Below are positions 2,987 to 63,574 of a DNA stretch of 64,000 nt, one piece after another. Location: NCBI GenBank assembly GCA_016125215.1, contig WGMF01000015.1, forward strand, positions 1 through 64,000, given 5' to 3'. The notes beneath the pieces were generated by a model that saw only the letters and a list, made by a program, of their open reading frames with translations, was not told the origin of the DNA and did no database searches. A program made the position numbers and the translations under genes. The stretch is from Phycisphaera sp. Its GTDB lineage: Bacteria > Planctomycetota > Phycisphaerae > Phycisphaerales > Phycisphaeraceae. Position 1 is the first letter of the stretch. The number at the start of each line of letters is the position of its first letter.

Positions 2987-3429
2987 GGATTTAGCCGCAG
3001 ATGAACGCAGATGAACGCCGATGTTTGAACGAAGTAACCGAGCGGATCATCGGGGCTGCGATGGAGGTGTCGAATGTGCTTGGAGTTGGTTTTCTTGAGA
3101 AGGTGTATGAAAACGCACTGGTGGAGGAGTTGAAGTTGCGGGGCCTGCATGGCGTTCGTCAACAGCGATTGCAGGTGCAATATAAAGGCGTCAACATCGG
3201 TGACTATGTGGCAGACTTGGTTGTTGAGAATCAGGTCATTGTGGAGCTCAAATGTGTTGAAGCTCTTGCTCCCGAACACACCGCCCAGTGTCTCAACTAC
3301 CTCAAAGCTACGGGTAAACACATCGCACTACTTCTCAACTTCCAGAAACCACGCCTGGATTTGAAACGGATCGTTCTGGATTTCTAACTTCTGATCTGCG
3401 TCCATCTGCGTTCATCTGCGGCTAAATCC
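2987..3429. mobile_element. Class A inverted-repeat element carrying a GxxExxY gene
   Basis: Two 36-bp arms (2987-3022 and 3394-3429) are inverted copies differing at 2 positions. Each is built of about 10-bp units of the type CAGATGAACG. Between them lies only the GxxExxY gene, whose ATG at 3001 is inside the left arm, so its first residues MNADERR are repeat-encoded. Gene-less copies of the same arm pair occur at 5354-5494 and 50337-50564, with solo arms at 161 and 8230. The cassette sits between sat and an unrelated gene. Mobility is inferred from this distribution. Confidence 0.7.
3001..3387 (+). CDS. GxxExxY protein, PD-(D/E)XK nuclease-like
   Basis: A 128-residue protein of the GxxExxY family. 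The name motif is visible as G30-x-x-E33-x-x-Y36. A PD-(D/E)XK-like core follows: D72 in VADLVVE and E82-x-K84 in IVELK. Members are thought to have the restriction-endonuclease fold; their biochemical role is not established. The start lies inside a class A repeat arm and no clear Shine-Dalgarno precedes it. The gene is visibly lower in GC than its neighbours, consistent with acquisition. Its placement between inverted arms suggests it acts on, or moves with, the repeat; that is inference. Confidence 0.85.
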   Translation: MNADERRCLNEVTERIIGAAMEVSNVLGVGFLEKVYENALVEELKLRGLHGVRQQRLQVQYKGVNIGDYVADLVVENQVIVELKCVEALAPEHTAQCLNYLKATGKHIALLLNFQKPRLDLKRIVLDF

Positions 3430-5349: not shown

Positions 5350-5353
5350 GAAA

Positions 5354-5494
5354 TAGCCGCAGATGAACGCAGATGAACGCCGATAAATACAAAAAGCATA
5401 GAGATCGTGGCTGTGATTACATCGCCTACTTTTGCAAATCGGATTTATTCTTGCTCTTTTTCTATCTGCGTTCATCGGCGTTCATCGGCGGCTA
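5354..5494. repeat. Class A inverted-repeat pair without a gene (MITE-like)
   Basis: The left arm begins TAGCCGCAGATGAACGCAGA at 5354. The right arm ends at 5494 as its inverted copy, with three differences in the first 32 bases; all three are A/C exchanges between CAGATGAACG and CCGATGAACG units. The core of roughly 60 bp carries no reading frame. Compared with the element at 2987, the GxxExxY gene is absent. Confidence 0.85.
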
Positions 5495-5536
5495 CTTCCT
5501 TTCCGTCTGCCCACGGGTTAACATTTCAATCACACG

Positions 5537-50328: not shown

Positions 50329-50336
50329 AGAAGAAG

Positions 50337-50564
50337 TAGCCGCAGATGAACGCAGATGAACGCAGATAAAGACCGAGAAACTCAGGTTCACGCGGGGGTC
50401 GCGGGGAGCGCTGGGAAAGACAATTGAATAATCAAAAAACCGACGCGTTACAGCGTCGGTTTTTTATTGTTTAACTCTTAATTTCTTCCCCCTCGCTCTG
50501 GGCGACCCCCGCGTGAAATCTTCCCTTCCCCATCTGCGTCCATCCGCGTTCATCTGCGGTTGAT
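50337..50564. repeat. Class A inverted-repeat pair around a terminator
   Basis: The left arm runs from TAGCCGCAGATGAACGCAGA at 50337 to about 50415. The right arm, 50484-50564, is its inverted relative and includes the shared inner block TTCACGCGGGGGTCGC. No gene lies between; the centre holds the hairpin terminator at 50434. The pair fills the gap between two convergent genes. Confidence 0.85.
50434..50465. terminator. Bidirectional intrinsic terminator
   Basis: AAAAAACCGACGC (50434-50446) and GCGTCGGTTTTTT (50453-50465) form a perfect 13-bp stem around GTTACA, with T-runs on both strands. It serves the convergent carbonic anhydrase-chemoreceptor and nuoH genes and is central within the class A pair. 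Confidence 0.93.
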
Positions 50565-52115
50565 TCACGCCGGCTCGGGCACGGGCTCGGTTTCCGCCTG
50601 CGGCTGCGGCCCGCGGGTGAACGGCACGGTGCGACCGACCGGCATGACGTCGGGGTAGAGCGTCTTGAAGGGTTGGCTCTTGTGTTTGAAGATCACACCC
50701 ATCCAGCCCAGGGCCATGATGAGCACGAACGACGCGACGATGAGCAGGCCGAATGCCGTGGTGGCGATCTGCGAAATCTTCTGGAGCGTCGGCGTTTCGC
50801 TTGCCAGGTGGCCCAGGCGGGTGATCGTGTTGGCGGACTCCGACCAGTGGCCGTGGATATCCGAGTTGAACGCGTAAGCGCCCTGGGGCTGCGGCACGAC
50901 GGCGATCCACACCGCCACACCCGCCAGCACCGCCAGGCTCAAGGGCAGGAGCACCTTGACACACGCGTGCAGCACCTGGTCGATGCGGATGCGCGGCAGC
51001 GTCCACCGCAACCAGATCTGCACCCAGATGACCGTCATCGCCTTGAGCGTGAACCACACCGCGCCCCACACGTGGACCAGGAGCAAGCCGATCGGCCCGA
51101 CGTGCAGCATCGTCGCCTTGTCCGTCCACGTCACCGCGTGGTCCAGCGCGCCGGACATGTACACCTGCCCCGCGTGGACGGGGTCGTAGCCGACGAACCA
51201 GTAGACCGGGTCCATCAGCCACTGCGTGTGGCCGATCATGAACCCGTCACCCAGCGGGCTGTTCCACCCGCCGAGGAAGAGCGTCGTCTGGATCGCGCCG
51301 ACGATGAACATCGCGCCGTACTCGGCGAAAAAGAAAAACGACCAGCGGATGCCGGAGTATTCGGTGTGGAAGCCCGCGACGAGTTCGGATTCGGATTCGG
51401 GCAGGTCGAAGGGCGCGCGTTTGTTCGACGCTAATGATGCGACAAAGTAGATCATGAACGCCGCGAACATGAGCGGGCTGTGGAAGATGAACCAGTCCCA
51501 GATGCCGCCGCCCTGGAGGTAGGACAATTCGACAAGGTTGAGCGTCCCGGCCACGAGCACGCCACAGAGGATGGAGACGCCCAGCGGGATCTCGTAGCTG
51601 ACCATCTGGCAGACCTCGCGCATCGCGCCGTAGATCGCCCACTTGGAGTTGCTGCCCCAACCGGCCATGATGACGCCCATCGCCTCGACCGCTAAGACCG
51701 CCAGCAGGTAGAGCACGCCGATGTTGAAGTTCGGCTCAAAGACCCACAGCGGCGCGAAGGGTAGCGCGAGGAAGGCTGCGAAGACGGGTGTGAAGGCGAT
51801 GTAGGGCGCGAACTTGAAGAGGAAGCCGTCCGCCCCGGAGGGCATGAGGTCTTCCTTGAGGATGAGCTTGATCCCGTCGGCCAATGATTGGGCCCAGCCG
51901 TGCCACCCGCCGACGTGCATCGGCCCGACGCGCGACTGGATGTGGCCGGCGACCTTGCGTTCCCACCAGATGCTGAACATCGCCACGAGCGAGATGATGC
52001 CCACAAACACCGTGGCCACGATGGTGAAGCGGATGATGATGGCGATCCACACCCCCCACGTCGCGGGGTCGAGGTGTCTCCAACTGGCAAGCTGCTCGGC
52101 AAAATCACGGATCAT
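50565..52115 (-). CDS. nuoH: NADH-quinone oxidoreductase subunit H
   Basis: Membrane subunit of respiratory complex I next to the quinone site. It has 516 residues from the ATG at 52115, clearly longer than the usual 320-430. Core motifs: WERKVAGHIQSRVGPMHVGG, PFDLPESESELVAGFHTEYSG and FFFFAEYGAMF. Extra length is in an insert around QWLMDPVYWFVGYDPVHAG and in a proline/glutamate-rich C-terminal tail. No other nuo gene is within the window, so it is detached from the usual cluster or the start of a cluster is broken. Confidence 0.92.
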   Translation of the reverse strand: MIRDFAEQLASWRHLDPATWGVWIAIIIRFTIVATVFVGIISLVAMFSIWWERKVAGHIQSRVGPMHVGGWHGWAQSLADGIKLILKEDLMPSGADGFLFKFAPYIAFTPVFAAFLALPFAPLWVFEPNFNIGVLYLLAVLAVEAMGVIMAGWGSNSKWAIYGAMREVCQMVSYEIPLGVSILCGVLVAGTLNLVELSYLQGGGIWDWFIFHSPLMFAAFMIYFVASLASNKRAPFDLPESESELVAGFHTEYSGIRWSFFFFAEYGAMFIVGAIQTTLFLGGWNSPLGDGFMIGHTQWLMDPVYWFVGYDPVHAGQVYMSGALDHAVTWTDKATMLHVGPIGLLLVHVWGAVWFTLKAMTVIWVQIWLRWTLPRIRIDQVLHACVKVLLPLSLAVLAGVAVWIAVVPQPQGAYAFNSDIHGHWSESANTITRLGHLASETPTLQKISQIATTAFGLLIVASFVLIMALGWMGVIFKHKSQPFKTLYPDVMPVGRTVPFTRGPQPQAETEPVPEPA

Positions 52116-59705: not shown

Positions 59706-61589
59706 ATGCCCACACCCCCACGCGTCATCATTGTCGGCGGAGGACTCGCAGGACTCGCGGCCGCTGTCCGTGTCGCCGAGGCCGGCTTAGACGTCGACCT
59801 CTTCTCCATGGTCCCCGTCAAACGCTCGCACAGCGTCTGCGCCCAGGGCGGGATCAACGCCTGCAACGAGGTCGCACGCCAGCAGGGTTACTCCGAGTGG
59901 ATGCACTTCGATGAAACGCTCTACGGCGGGGACTTCCTCAACCACCAGCCGCCGGTCTACGAGATGGCCTACGGTGCCCCGGGCATCATCGACCTGCTCG
60001 ACCGCATGGGCGTGCCCTTCAACCGCACACCCGAGGGCCAGCGCGACCTGCGCATGTTCGGCGGATCGCTCTACAAACGCACCCACTTCGCCGGCGCCAC
60101 CACGGGCCAGCAACTGCTCTACGCCCTCGACGAACAGGCCCGACGCTGGGAAGCGCAGGGCAAGGTCACCAAGTACGAGTTCTGGGAGTTCCTCTGGCCC
60201 GTCCTCGACGATGAGGGCACCTGCAAGGGCATCGTCGCGCAGGACATGCGCACCATGCAGGTCCGCGCCTTCCGTGGCGACGCGGTCGTCATGGCCACCG
60301 GCGGCTGCGGGTTGATCTTCGGCAAGAGCACCATGAGCGTCATCTGCACCGGCGGCGCGGCGGCGCGCTGCTACCAGGCCGGCGCAGCACTGGGCAACCC
60401 CGAGTTCATCCAGGTCCACCCCACCGCCATCCCCGGTGAAGACAAGTGCAGACTCATGTCCGAGTCGGCGCGTGGCGAGGGTGGTCGGGTGTGGGTCCCC
60501 CGCAAGAAACAAGACCCCCGCAAGCCCAACGACATCCCCGCCGCGGAACGCTGGTACTTCCTCGAAGAGAAGTACCCCAAGTATGGCAACCTCGTCCCGC
60601 GCGACATTGCCACACGCGAGATTTTCTACGTCTGTCAGGACGGTTACGGGGTCGGCGGCGGACGCATGGTCTACCTCGACGTGTCGCACCTGCCGATGGA
60701 GACTAAGAAAAAGCTCGCGGGCATCCTCGAGATCTACGAGAAGTTCGTCGGCGACAACCCGTACGAAGTCCCGATGAAAATCTTCCCCAGCGTCCACTAC
60801 TCCATGGGCGGCCTCTACACCGTCTACAAGGCCAAGCCCGACAACAAGGGCATGGTCCTCGGTGCGCACGAAAACATGATGACCAACATCAAGGGTCTGT
60901 ATGCTTTTGGCGAGGTCAACTACCAGTACCACGGCGCGACACGTCTGGGGGCCAATGCGCTGCTCAACTGCATCTTCGACGGCCTGTTCTGCGGGCTGAG
61001 TGTCGCCAACTACGCCAAGGAGCCGCACGGCAAACCGGCCGCGGAACTCGACGCCGGCGTGTTCGAGGGTGTGGTGGAACAGGAAAAGAACAAGGTCCGC
61101 AAGCTCGTCGACTCCAAGGGCACCGAGAACCCCTACAAGATCCACCAGAAGCTCGGCGAGGAGATGACCGACTCCTGCACCGTCGTCCGCACCGAAGACC
61201 GCATGAAGCAGGCTTACAATGTGTTAGAGGACCTCACGCAACGCTACCAGAGCGTGCGGTTGAGCGACACCTCGATGTGGACCAACCAGAACCTTTCGTT
61301 CACCCGCGCCCTGGGCGACATGCTGCTTTACGCCGAGGCGATCCTCAAGACCGCCATCCAACGCAAGGAGTCGCGCGGCTCGCACTACCGCCCGGACTAC
61401 CCCGAACGCGACGACGCCCAATTCCTCAAGACCACCATCGCCCGCTACGACGCCGCGACGAACAAGTGCAGGATCGAATACGAAGACGTGCCCCAGCCGC
61501 TTGTCGAACCCCGCGCGCGGACCTACGGCAAGGTCGAGGCCGAGGCCGAGAACAAAGCCGGCGATAAGAAGGAAACCGTCAAGGCGTGA
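59706..61589 (+). CDS. sdhA: Succinate dehydrogenase flavoprotein subunit
   Basis: Oxidises succinate to fumarate in the TCA cycle with covalent FAD. It has 627 residues. VIIVGGGLAGLAAAVRVAEAG binds FAD, and RSHSVCAQGG gives the FAD-attachment His42. GEDKCRLMSESARGEGGRVW is the active-site block and PSVHYSMGG the substrate-binding block. The TGA overlaps the next gene's GTG by four bases. The C-terminal tail is lysine/glutamate-rich. Confidence 0.96.
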   Translation: MPTPPRVIIVGGGLAGLAAAVRVAEAGLDVDLFSMVPVKRSHSVCAQGGINACNEVARQQGYSEWMHFDETLYGGDFLNHQPPVYEMAYGAPGIIDLLDRMGVPFNRTPEGQRDLRMFGGSLYKRTHFAGATTGQQLLYALDEQARRWEAQGKVTKYEFWEFLWPVLDDEGTCKGIVAQDMRTMQVRAFRGDAVVMATGGCGLIFGKSTMSVICTGGAAARCYQAGAALGNPEFIQVHPTAIPGEDKCRLMSESARGEGGRVWVPRKKQDPRKPNDIPAAERWYFLEEKYPKYGNLVPRDIATREIFYVCQDGYGVGGGRMVYLDVSHLPMETKKKLAGILEIYEKFVGDNPYEVPMKIFPSVHYSMGGLYTVYKAKPDNKGMVLGAHENMMTNIKGLYAFGEVNYQYHGATRLGANALLNCIFDGLFCGLSVANYAKEPHGKPAAELDAGVFEGVVEQEKNKVRKLVDSKGTENPYKIHQKLGEEMTDSCTVVRTEDRMKQAYNVLEDLTQRYQSVRLSDTSMWTNQNLSFTRALGDMLLYAEAILKTAIQRKESRGSHYRPDYPERDDAQFLKTTIARYDAATNKCRIEYEDVPQPLVEPRARTYGKVEAEAENKAGDKKETVKA

Positions 61590-62116
61590 GCAGCGTCGCC
61601 CAACCATCCCGACACACGACCGTCACGCGGAACACCACGCCCGAGGAACCCGACCTCTGGCTGCCACCCCGTCGCATGCGCCGCTACCAGTTGGCCAAGG
61701 TCGGCGGCGCGCTGGTTGTTACGCTGATCTTCGTCGGCTGGCTCGTCCTCCAGTGGTCCAACCCCGCGATGCGTTACCTCACGCTCGCGCTGCTGGCTAT
61801 CACGCTCTGGGTCACGCTTGCGTCGATCCTCGGCGACTTGGCCCGCTCACGCGGCAGGCAACTGCGCATCGCCGGCGGAAAGATGACCGTAAAACTCGGC
61901 GAACAGTTGACCACGATCTCCCTCGAAAAAATCTTCCGGGGGCAATGGCGAGAAGACGCTTACGACACCGCCGGCCTGTGGCTCATTGACCAGAACGGGG
62001 CCACACTCGCCCACCTCGACACCGGTTACCTCGCCGACCAGGACGAGGCCCGCGCGTTCCTGCGATGGGCACGACAACGCGCCAAGTTTGATTTCCCGAT
62101 ACAGTGGCCAACATGA
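61586..62116 (+). CDS. Two-TM hypothetical membrane protein coupled to sdhA
   Basis: A 176-residue protein starting at GTG 61586, overlapping the sdhA stop. Two membrane helices (about 38-58 and 65-85) are followed by a cytoplasmic or periplasmic beta-rich domain resembling a PH-like fold (QLRIAGGKMTVKLGEQLTTISLEKIF). No family recognised. Coupling suggests it is made with the sdh complex, but its role is unknown. Confidence 0.65.
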   Translation: MSSVAQPSRHTTVTRNTTPEEPDLWLPPRRMRRYQLAKVGGALVVTLIFVGWLVLQWSNPAMRYLTLALLAITLWVTLASILGDLARSRGRQLRIAGGKMTVKLGEQLTTISLEKIFRGQWREDAYDTAGLWLIDQNGATLAHLDTGYLADQDEARAFLRWARQRAKFDFPIQWPT

Positions 62117-62127
62117 GCCTAATTCCA

Positions 62128-62640
62128 CTCCCCTCCCTTTTCAGAGGGAGGGGCTGGGGGAGGGTGTTCTGCTTAGAATGAAACAGACGCAATACAACAC
62201 GGCCAGACGCTCCAAAGTGAGCGAGGGAACCCGCCAAGCCGCTAAAGCATTGCGTCGCGAAATGACGGTGCCCGAGCGTGTGCTCTGGAATCTATTACGC
62301 AACGGCCAACTGAATCATCTCAAGTTTCGCAGGCAACACCCCATCGGCTCGTACATCGTGGACTTTTGCTGCCCGCAAGCCAAGTTGATTATCGAAGTCG
62401 TTGGCTTATCCCACGCCGGTACAGGCGCTGCCGACCAGGCACGCACTTTAGTTTTGAAAAGACTGGGCGATAGAGTCTTCCGAGCGACAAATGACGAGGT
62501 ATTGCATGATCCCGATGCGGTATTTCATGCGATTGCGAACGCGGCGGGGGTTGAGGATCGCATGGTGTTTAATCAACGACATCGCAAGTCCATGGCTCAA
62601 GAGATCCCCTCCCCTGCCCCTGCCCTTGAAAGGGGAGGGG
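62128..62640. mobile_element. Class E inverted-repeat element carrying a DUF559 gene
   Basis: The left arm 62128-62165 (CTCCCCTCCCTTTTCAGAGG...) and the right arm 62606-62640 (CCCCTCCCCTGCCCCTGCCC...) are inverted relatives with internal hairpins. The only content is the DUF559 gene, whose C-terminal residues are encoded by the right arm. The element splits sdhB from sdhA. Confidence 0.7.
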
Positions 62641-62648
62641 TGAAGTGA
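62178..62648 (+). CDS. DUF559 endonuclease-like protein
   Basis: A 156-residue protein with a Vsr/REase-like core. RREMTVPERVLWNLLRNGQLNHLKFRRQHPIGSYIVDFCC matches DUF559, with Asp62. The usual E-x-D-G is EVVG (Glu73, with Val75 where Asp is typical), so activity may be reduced. The last 15 residues (EIPSPAPALERGGVK) come from the repeat arm. GC content is lower than in sdhA. Start ATG at 62178 after the left arm. Confidence 0.8.
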   Translation: MKQTQYNTARRSKVSEGTRQAAKALRREMTVPERVLWNLLRNGQLNHLKFRRQHPIGSYIVDFCCPQAKLIIEVVGLSHAGTGAADQARTLVLKRLGDRVFRATNDEVLHDPDAVFHAIANAAGVEDRMVFNQRHRKSMAQEIPSPAPALERGGVK

Positions 62649-62779: not shown

Positions 62780-63574
62780 ATGATCGCCAAAAACCCCGAC
62801 AGTCAAAACAGCGTGCACTTCAAGATCAAGCGCCAGGACGGGCCGGACAAGCCCGCGTATTGGCAGACCTTCGACGTGCCTTACAAACCCAACTTGAACG
62901 TGATCTCCTGTCTTCAAGCCATCGCTGCCAACCCGACCACAAGTGAGGGGCAGGAGACGACCGTCGTCGTCTGGGACTGCAACTGTCTGGAAGAAGTCTG
63001 CGGCGCCTGCACGATGGTCATCAACGGCACAGCCCGACAGAGCTGCTCGGCCCTCATCGACCAGATGCGCGAGCAGGGCTTTGGCTCACGCGAGAACCCC
63101 ATCGTCCTCGAACCCATGACCAAGTTCCCCGTCGTGCGCGACCTGTGGGTCGACCGCTCACGCATGTTCAAGCAACTGCTGCGCCTCAAGGCCTGGGTCC
63201 CCATCGACGGCACACACAAACTCGGGGCCGGCCCGAAAGAGTCGCCCGAGATGCAGGACGAACGCTACCAGCTCTCACGCTGCATGACCTGCGGATGCTG
63301 CCTCGAAGCCTGCCCGCAATACCTCAAGGACAACCACTTCATCGGTGCCAACGCGATCGGCCAAACGCTTTACTTCAACGAGCACGAGACGGGCAAGAAC
63401 CTCCAGGGCGAACGCCTCGACGTCATGATGGAGCCCGGCGGGATCAGCGACTGCGGCAACGCACAGAACTGCGTCAAAGTCTGCCCCAAGGAAGTCCCCC
63501 TGACGCTGGCCATCGCCAAGGTCGGCAGGCAGGTCACCGTCCACGCCATCAAGAAGTTCTTCATGGGCAAGTGA
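62780..63574 (+). CDS. sdhB: Succinate dehydrogenase iron-sulfur subunit
   Basis: Electron-transfer subunit with three Fe-S clusters, 264 residues. The [2Fe-2S] ligands are Cys69, Cys74, Cys77 and Cys89. CMTCGCCLEACPQ and CGNAQNCVKVCPKE hold the [4Fe-4S] and [3Fe-4S] ligands. It lies over 650 bp after its sdhC/sdhA partners, separated by the membrane-protein gene and the DUF559 element. A terminator follows at 63629. Confidence 0.96.
   Translation: MIAKNPDSQNSVHFKIKRQDGPDKPAYWQTFDVPYKPNLNVISCLQAIAANPTTSEGQETTVVVWDCNCLEEVCGACTMVINGTARQSCSALIDQMREQGFGSRENPIVLEPMTKFPVVRDLWVDRSRMFKQLLRLKAWVPIDGTHKLGAGPKESPEMQDERYQLSRCMTCGCCLEACPQYLKDNHFIGANAIGQTLYFNEHETGKNLQGERLDVMMEPGGISDCGNAQNCVKVCPKEVPLTLAIAKVGRQVTVHAIKKFFMGK

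Follow-up and report, generated by a model that had tools for sequence, protein, structure and literature searches.

A DUF559 nuclease gene between inverted hairpin arms as a probable REPIN/MITE-like mobile element in Phycisphaera and other bacteria

The palindromic elements of Rickettsia insert in frame in protein genes and are not known to carry a nuclease gene. In REPIN-RAYT systems, inverted pairs of short palindromes are dispersed over the genome together with one enzyme gene, and the gene-less copies are far more numerous, according to the accessible parts of two studies [PMC3116915, PMC8266576]. For proteins with a DUF559 domain, a genotoxic effect in vivo is reported for Caulobacter VsrA in the available portion of PMC12907096, and a DUF559 gene is named an EDxHD homing endonuclease, in an intein context, in the excerpt available of PMC9403480. 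In the literature surveyed, DUF559 was nowhere linked to palindromic repeats, including what is accessible of PMC12907096, PMC3733652, PMC9403480, PMC3943268 and PMC3116915, nor was any work found that joins DUF559 with an inverted repeat, or REPIN with an endonuclease and Vsr; a description in subscription papers is not excluded. The kind of element described below is apparently undescribed and apparently widespread.

The window, by which we mean the whole stretch of 64,000 nucleotides analysed (Phycisphaera sp., GenBank assembly GCA_016125215.1, contig WGMF01000015.1, positions 1 to 64,000), contains one such element on the + strand at 62130..62640 (511 nt, arm to arm). The left arm (62130..62166, + strand) consists of a hairpin, CCCCTCCCTT-TTCA-GAGGGAGGGG, whose stem pairs 62130-62139 with 62144-62153, followed by the G-rich tail CTGGGGGAGGGTG. 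The DUF559 gene (62178..62648, + strand) encodes 156 aa from the ATG at 62178, with an Asp-to-Val change at residue 75; no second DUF559 gene was found in the 4.04-Mb genome. The right arm (62604..62641, + strand), a hairpin with its tail facing inwards, encodes the protein's C-terminus, IPSPAPALERGGVK, and together with a few surrounding bases supplies the final 14 codons before the TGA at 62646-62648. More generally, an arm combines a short hairpin with a conserved G-rich tail behind it, GGGAG(A)GGG-YYR-GGG(T)GAGGG, and the two arms are inverted. The initial annotation had described class E arms enclosing a DUF559 gene whose C-terminus is encoded by the right arm, and both statements are borne out for the window copy: the protein matches the DUF559 profile (PF04480) at E 3.8e-34, with 117.3 bits against a curated cut-off of 20.6, and the inverted-repeat score of the arms is 21, compared with a 99th percentile of 18-19 for control placements. 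Each arm also folds alone as a DNA hairpin (z -2.1 for the left, -2.9 for the right). A stop codon within the right arm occurs in 14 of 72 arm-bearing loci of the order, and this detail of the window is not the rule.

The gene order at this locus is sdhA, an open reading frame of 176 aa, the element and sdhB. The names sdhA and sdhB are our assumption, made from the sequences alone, and 62780..63574 (+ strand) is on this basis taken to be of the sdhB type. The open reading frame (61586..62116, + strand) has no Pfam match and, with sdhA and sdhB, frames an empty site in relatives: the element is absent between it and sdhB in all five relatives with the order sdhA-ORF-sdhB (L330-L334), in which the gap measures 46 to about 130 nt, as against 667 nt in the window. 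Two other matches of the open reading frame, one in the genome itself and one consisting of the open reading frame only (L335), were left out of this comparison. Because the gap is short and free of DUF559 in five relatives with the same gene order, the element in the window is an insertion at the sdhA-ORF-sdhB locus.

Gene-less class E arms, whose presence elsewhere in this genome the initial annotation had left to be checked, occur at 29 other sites. A genome search with the arm palindrome returned 45 forward and 43 reverse matches, compared with 0 for a reversed control pattern, and these group into 30 sites, namely the element of the window and the 29 gene-less ones. A strict left-end/right-end pattern retrieves 19 elements, 18 of them gene-less (95-126 nt) and the last being the 511-nt gene copy; all 19 share one polarity, with the left-type hairpin first and the right-type second, and the ends CCCC...GGGG. 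The other 11 of the 29 gene-less sites are variants or single hairpins. By eye, no GTAG or CGTC tag common to the foot of the palindromes was found in the 19 strict elements, and no target-site duplication was seen around them, again by eye only. Four gene-less sites of this genome (L032, L034, L046 and L047) have an extra inverted repeat of the type GGCGTC.../...GACGCCA outside the arms and look as if the element were nested in another palindromic repeat. Inverted palindrome pairs at many sites, 30 here, with one associated enzyme gene are reminiscent of REPIN-RAYT (TnpA-REP) systems. In contrast to these, the enzyme is an EDxHD/Vsr-like nuclease with a REase fold and not a HUH Y1 transposase, GGG(T)GAGGG takes the place of GTAG in the tail, and copies of the element that carry the gene multiply as well and enter genes in frame.

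Arms of this kind accompany DUF559 genes well beyond the window. DUF559 is matched in 90 of 251 genomes of the order, and in 51 the match is strong (E below 1e-20); at the 76 strong loci taken from these, inverted arms, defined by a score of 18 or more, were present in 70, compared with 6 of 335 control placements (the count was 72 before runs of N were neutralised, which affected L199 and L245). A broader sample of named genomes, selected by protein, yielded 79 loci kept from 562 relatives, two of them with too little flank; inverted arms were found at 56 of the 77 testable loci, while 99% of 612 controls scored 18 or below, and 21 of the 77 failed the test. By title, the passing loci belong to Planctomycetota, Alpha- and Gammaproteobacteria, Nitrospirae, Chloroflexi, Cyanobacteria, Elusimicrobia and others, and many arm-bearing loci repeat the design of a hairpin followed by GAGGG. 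The two sets of loci partly overlap (L090 is identical to L088 and was dropped; L124 and L127 look like L238 and L225 and were kept). Chance as the origin of the arms was rejected on the control placements of both sets. No arms were found at the seven DUF559-like stretches within large proteins that were tested, and five of six orthologous DUF559 copies in Azospirillum had no scoring inverted arms. The proposal that DUF559 genes are linked to inverted repeats is hence supported in both samples, and the outcome that would have refuted it, an absence of related repeats beside other DUF559 genes, did not occur when their flanks were compared. The initial annotation in fact understated the extent of the phenomenon, which comprises a mobile unit, gene-less copies with both ends and in-frame insertion. 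In eight loci (L106, L113, L123, L129, L148, L149, L179 and L180) the tails face outwards, in the order tail-hairpin-gene-hairpin-tail, opposite to that of the window, so two arm orientations exist. In Escherichia coli, the 3' end of the DUF559 gene (L174; ycjD in K-12, L336) bears a right arm, CCCTCACCCCAACCCTCTCCCTGAAAGGGCGAGGGGG, and no other arm was seen at the ycjD locus. Coverage of the ycjD region reaches at least 80% in 3333 of 5426 E. coli genomes; the use of ycjD-less genomes as a clean empty site was rejected, an efflux operon following sapF in the two that were opened.

An AlphaFold2 model of the window protein (mean pLDDT 82) has its best structural matches in 3hrl (Z 14.6), the homing endonuclease I-Bth0305I (Z 11.2, rmsd 2.5 over 92 residues) and Vsr (Z 8.9), and a profile search matches the homing endonuclease 3r3p at E 3.3e-5; on the predicted model, DUF559 is shown to have the EDxHD homing-endonuclease/Vsr fold. 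Further VIA-align matches of intermediate Z, TnsA (Z 6.4) among them, are not relied on. The element shares this fold with Vsr and Caulobacter VsrA and differs from them in its arms and its mobility. The conserved residues E33, D62, E73, H79, D86 and R89 (window numbering) are intact in the window protein. At residue 75, where the initial annotation had noted Val in place of the usual Asp, the substitution is real: the window copy has Val (GTT), 150 of 154 aligned DUF559 domains have Asp, and the homing endonuclease 3r3p has Asn in this column. The reading frame is intact despite D75V, and the window copy may be impaired. In seven close pairs of DUF559 genes, dN/dS was 0.13-0.22 in five and 0.09 in one, with one not computable, and on this evidence, which is drawn from sequence comparison only, DUF559 is under purifying selection. 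No anti-phage defence family was matched by the window protein in PADLOC at E 0.01, and nothing in PADLOC, PHROGs or Rfam explained the element.

The arms and the gene have moved together, at different sites, with empty sites and gene-less copies that have the same ends. Two copies in a single genome (L239 and L242, genome G227) are 86% identical over 533 nt, arm to arm, whereas their flanks differ; the similarity spans from -111 to about +100 around the DUF559 domain. On plasmids of Synechocystis B12, one element splits a DUF1156 gene (L179) and a second one a methyltransferase gene (L180), and the methyltransferase site is gene-bearing there, gene-less in Pseudanabaena galeata (L187) and empty in Planktothrix (L188). 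The gene-less element of P. galeata is read in frame, leaving the protein open over 1218 aa, and another in-frame element (L063) stands ahead of the DPCCGSGHFL motif of a different methyltransferase. Insertion within genes in frame is possible because the arms are read through and translated as linkers rich in P, G and R. The Rickettsia palindromic elements are likewise palindromic and inserted in frame in protein genes, and its nuclease gene, which they are not known to carry, sets the present element apart from them.

A conserved metabolic gene also serves as an in-frame host site in the order: in nine genomes (G195, G229, G179, G104, G150, G084, G243, G115 and G054) arms and DUF559 form an in-frame insert of an HMG-CoA-lyase-like (HMGL-like) protein, placed in the loop between the motifs WVPQLGD (or WVPQLAD) and LVPN. 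In one of these fusions (L206), PF00682 and PF04480 both match above cut-off in one frame, and no intein splicing domain was found around the nuclease with Pfam. Across 120 genomes of that family, a search located the host gene in 113. Among the opened loci, 24 have a linker of 29-35 aa, including a scar in G169, and 11 one of 42-55 aa, some of which carry arm-like peptides (L281, L287); nine were not resolved by the motif used. Within a single genus, G195 and G104 share 86% identity in the host protein and 52% in the inserted DUF559, the corresponding values for G104 and G084 being 83% and 84%, and G169, of the same genus, retains a single hairpin at this spot. A tree of 76 DUF559 domains (106 columns) gives four changes, and a single origin of the HMGL copies is not rejected (AU p 0.169); the tree is too short to settle the number of invasions. 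Judged from the sequences, the site looks like one of repeated capture or replacement, as in homing, which the 106-column tree does not prove. EDxHD homing endonucleases of the I-Bth0305I type, which are free-standing or intron-borne, resemble DUF559 in sequence and in fold and, if the HMGL site was indeed invaded repeatedly, in the recurrent occupation of a conserved-gene site; DUF559 differs in its hairpin arms, in the absence of any intein domain found and in its gene-less copies at many sites.

The arrangement is real, repeated and mobile, and what moves it has to be inferred. The hairpin pairs could be the mobile unit and be moved by another enzyme, for example a Y1/HUH transposase, with DUF559 as a passenger in some of them. 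We consider this unlikely, although part of the evidence lends itself to it. Y1_Tnp matches occur in the genome itself (seven) and in 28 of the 32 arm-rich genomes, defined as those with 10 or more pattern hits; 12 of the 32 have no strong DUF559, among them G009 of the same family (99% complete), in which the arm pattern matches 87 times and DUF559 not at all; and a near-invariant residue is changed in the DUF559 of the window, whereas the ends of the gene-less copies have stayed similar. The 12 genomes point to passive movement, to foreign help or to gene loss. However, the seven Y1 transposase-like genes of the genome (L304, L323-L328) each have their own, different inverted repeat, and the arm motif, present at 28 of 76 DUF559 loci of the order, occurs at none of 36 Y1_Tnp loci, including the seven, even though inverted flanks of other kinds are found at 13 of the 36 within 260 nt and at 28 within 600. 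The idea that such arms flank any mobile gene was rejected on these grounds and, because the Y1 transposase link that defines the RAYT-REPIN family was tested and is absent at these loci, the element is not a member of it. It would also be odd for a passenger to lie between such arms in many phyla and to be strongly conserved, with the reservation that only DUF559 and Y1 genes were surveyed. Arm-rich genomes make up 20 of 51 with strong DUF559 and 12 of 200 without (odds ratio 10), compared with 28 of 159 with Y1 and 4 of 92 without (odds ratio 4.7), so that the association is less striking for Y1; within the family to which this genome belongs, 8 of 9 genomes with DUF559 are arm-rich, against 7 of 42. 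None of these comparisons is corrected for kinship, and the arm pattern used across genomes is mirror-symmetric, which makes a reversed-pattern control worthless, and none was used. For this one pattern, 31 of the 51 DUF559 genomes are arm-poor.

It is also conceivable, if quite unlikely, that DUF559 is a homing-endonuclease gene that alone is mobile and invades pre-existing palindromic repeats as its target, as its relationship to a homing endonuclease, the methyltransferase site with and without the gene (L180 and L187) and the match between the arms of the window and the gene-less copies of its genome would allow. Yet the arms accompany the gene to new sites, as in L239 and L242, and there are sites that lack both (L188, L330-L334). 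That DUF559 is instead a host gene of the Vsr kind, acting in mismatch repair after cytosine methylation, and the hairpins terminators or chance repeats, appears very improbable: its occurrence is patchy (a strong match in 51 of 251 genomes), and this reading fits neither the insertion within unrelated genes, nor the gene-less copies that share its ends, nor the similar arms across phyla, even if DUF559 has the Vsr fold and Caulobacter VsrA, with its DUF559 domain, is needed for an SOS response in cells without a cytosine methyltransferase, as given in the accessible part of PMC12907096.

Hence, we regard the DUF559 gene and its two arms as probably forming one REPIN/MITE-like mobile element with its own homing-type nuclease, where the role of the nuclease in movement is inferred, there being no data on cutting or movement. 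The nuclease would recognise the arm, as hairpin or duplex, or the target site, and cut; repair would then copy the element in, and gene-less copies would be served in trans through the ends that they share with it. Being palindromic, each arm would also be a direct repeat of the other, and the gene could therefore be lost with one hairpin left, as may have happened in G169. The 29 gene-less sites of the genome may now be orphans, because its only DUF559 has the near-invariant Asp mutated. More tentatively, and with slightly less than even confidence, we hypothesize a widespread class of bacterial elements in which paired hairpins with G-rich tags carry a homing-type nuclease of the REase fold instead of a transposase, spread with and without the gene and enter conserved genes in frame without splicing, the arms serving as harmless linkers and the nuclease becoming an inserted domain of the host enzyme. 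If true, this would assign a role to a large family of 'unknown function', of which E. coli ycjD is a member, and a second enzyme type to REPIN-like repeats, so far tied to HUH transposases; it would reveal a selfish gene living in frame within a metabolic enzyme without splicing, and it would become possible to test directly how CCCTC-type palindromic repeats arose and spread in many phyla.

Elsewhere in the window, a GxxExxY-like open frame at 2987-3429 (130 aa, GVGFLEKVYENAL) lies between unrelated inverted arms (GCCGCAGATGAACGCAGATG) and looks like a parallel system; gene-less pairs of the associated repeat stand at 5350-5498 and 50333-50566.
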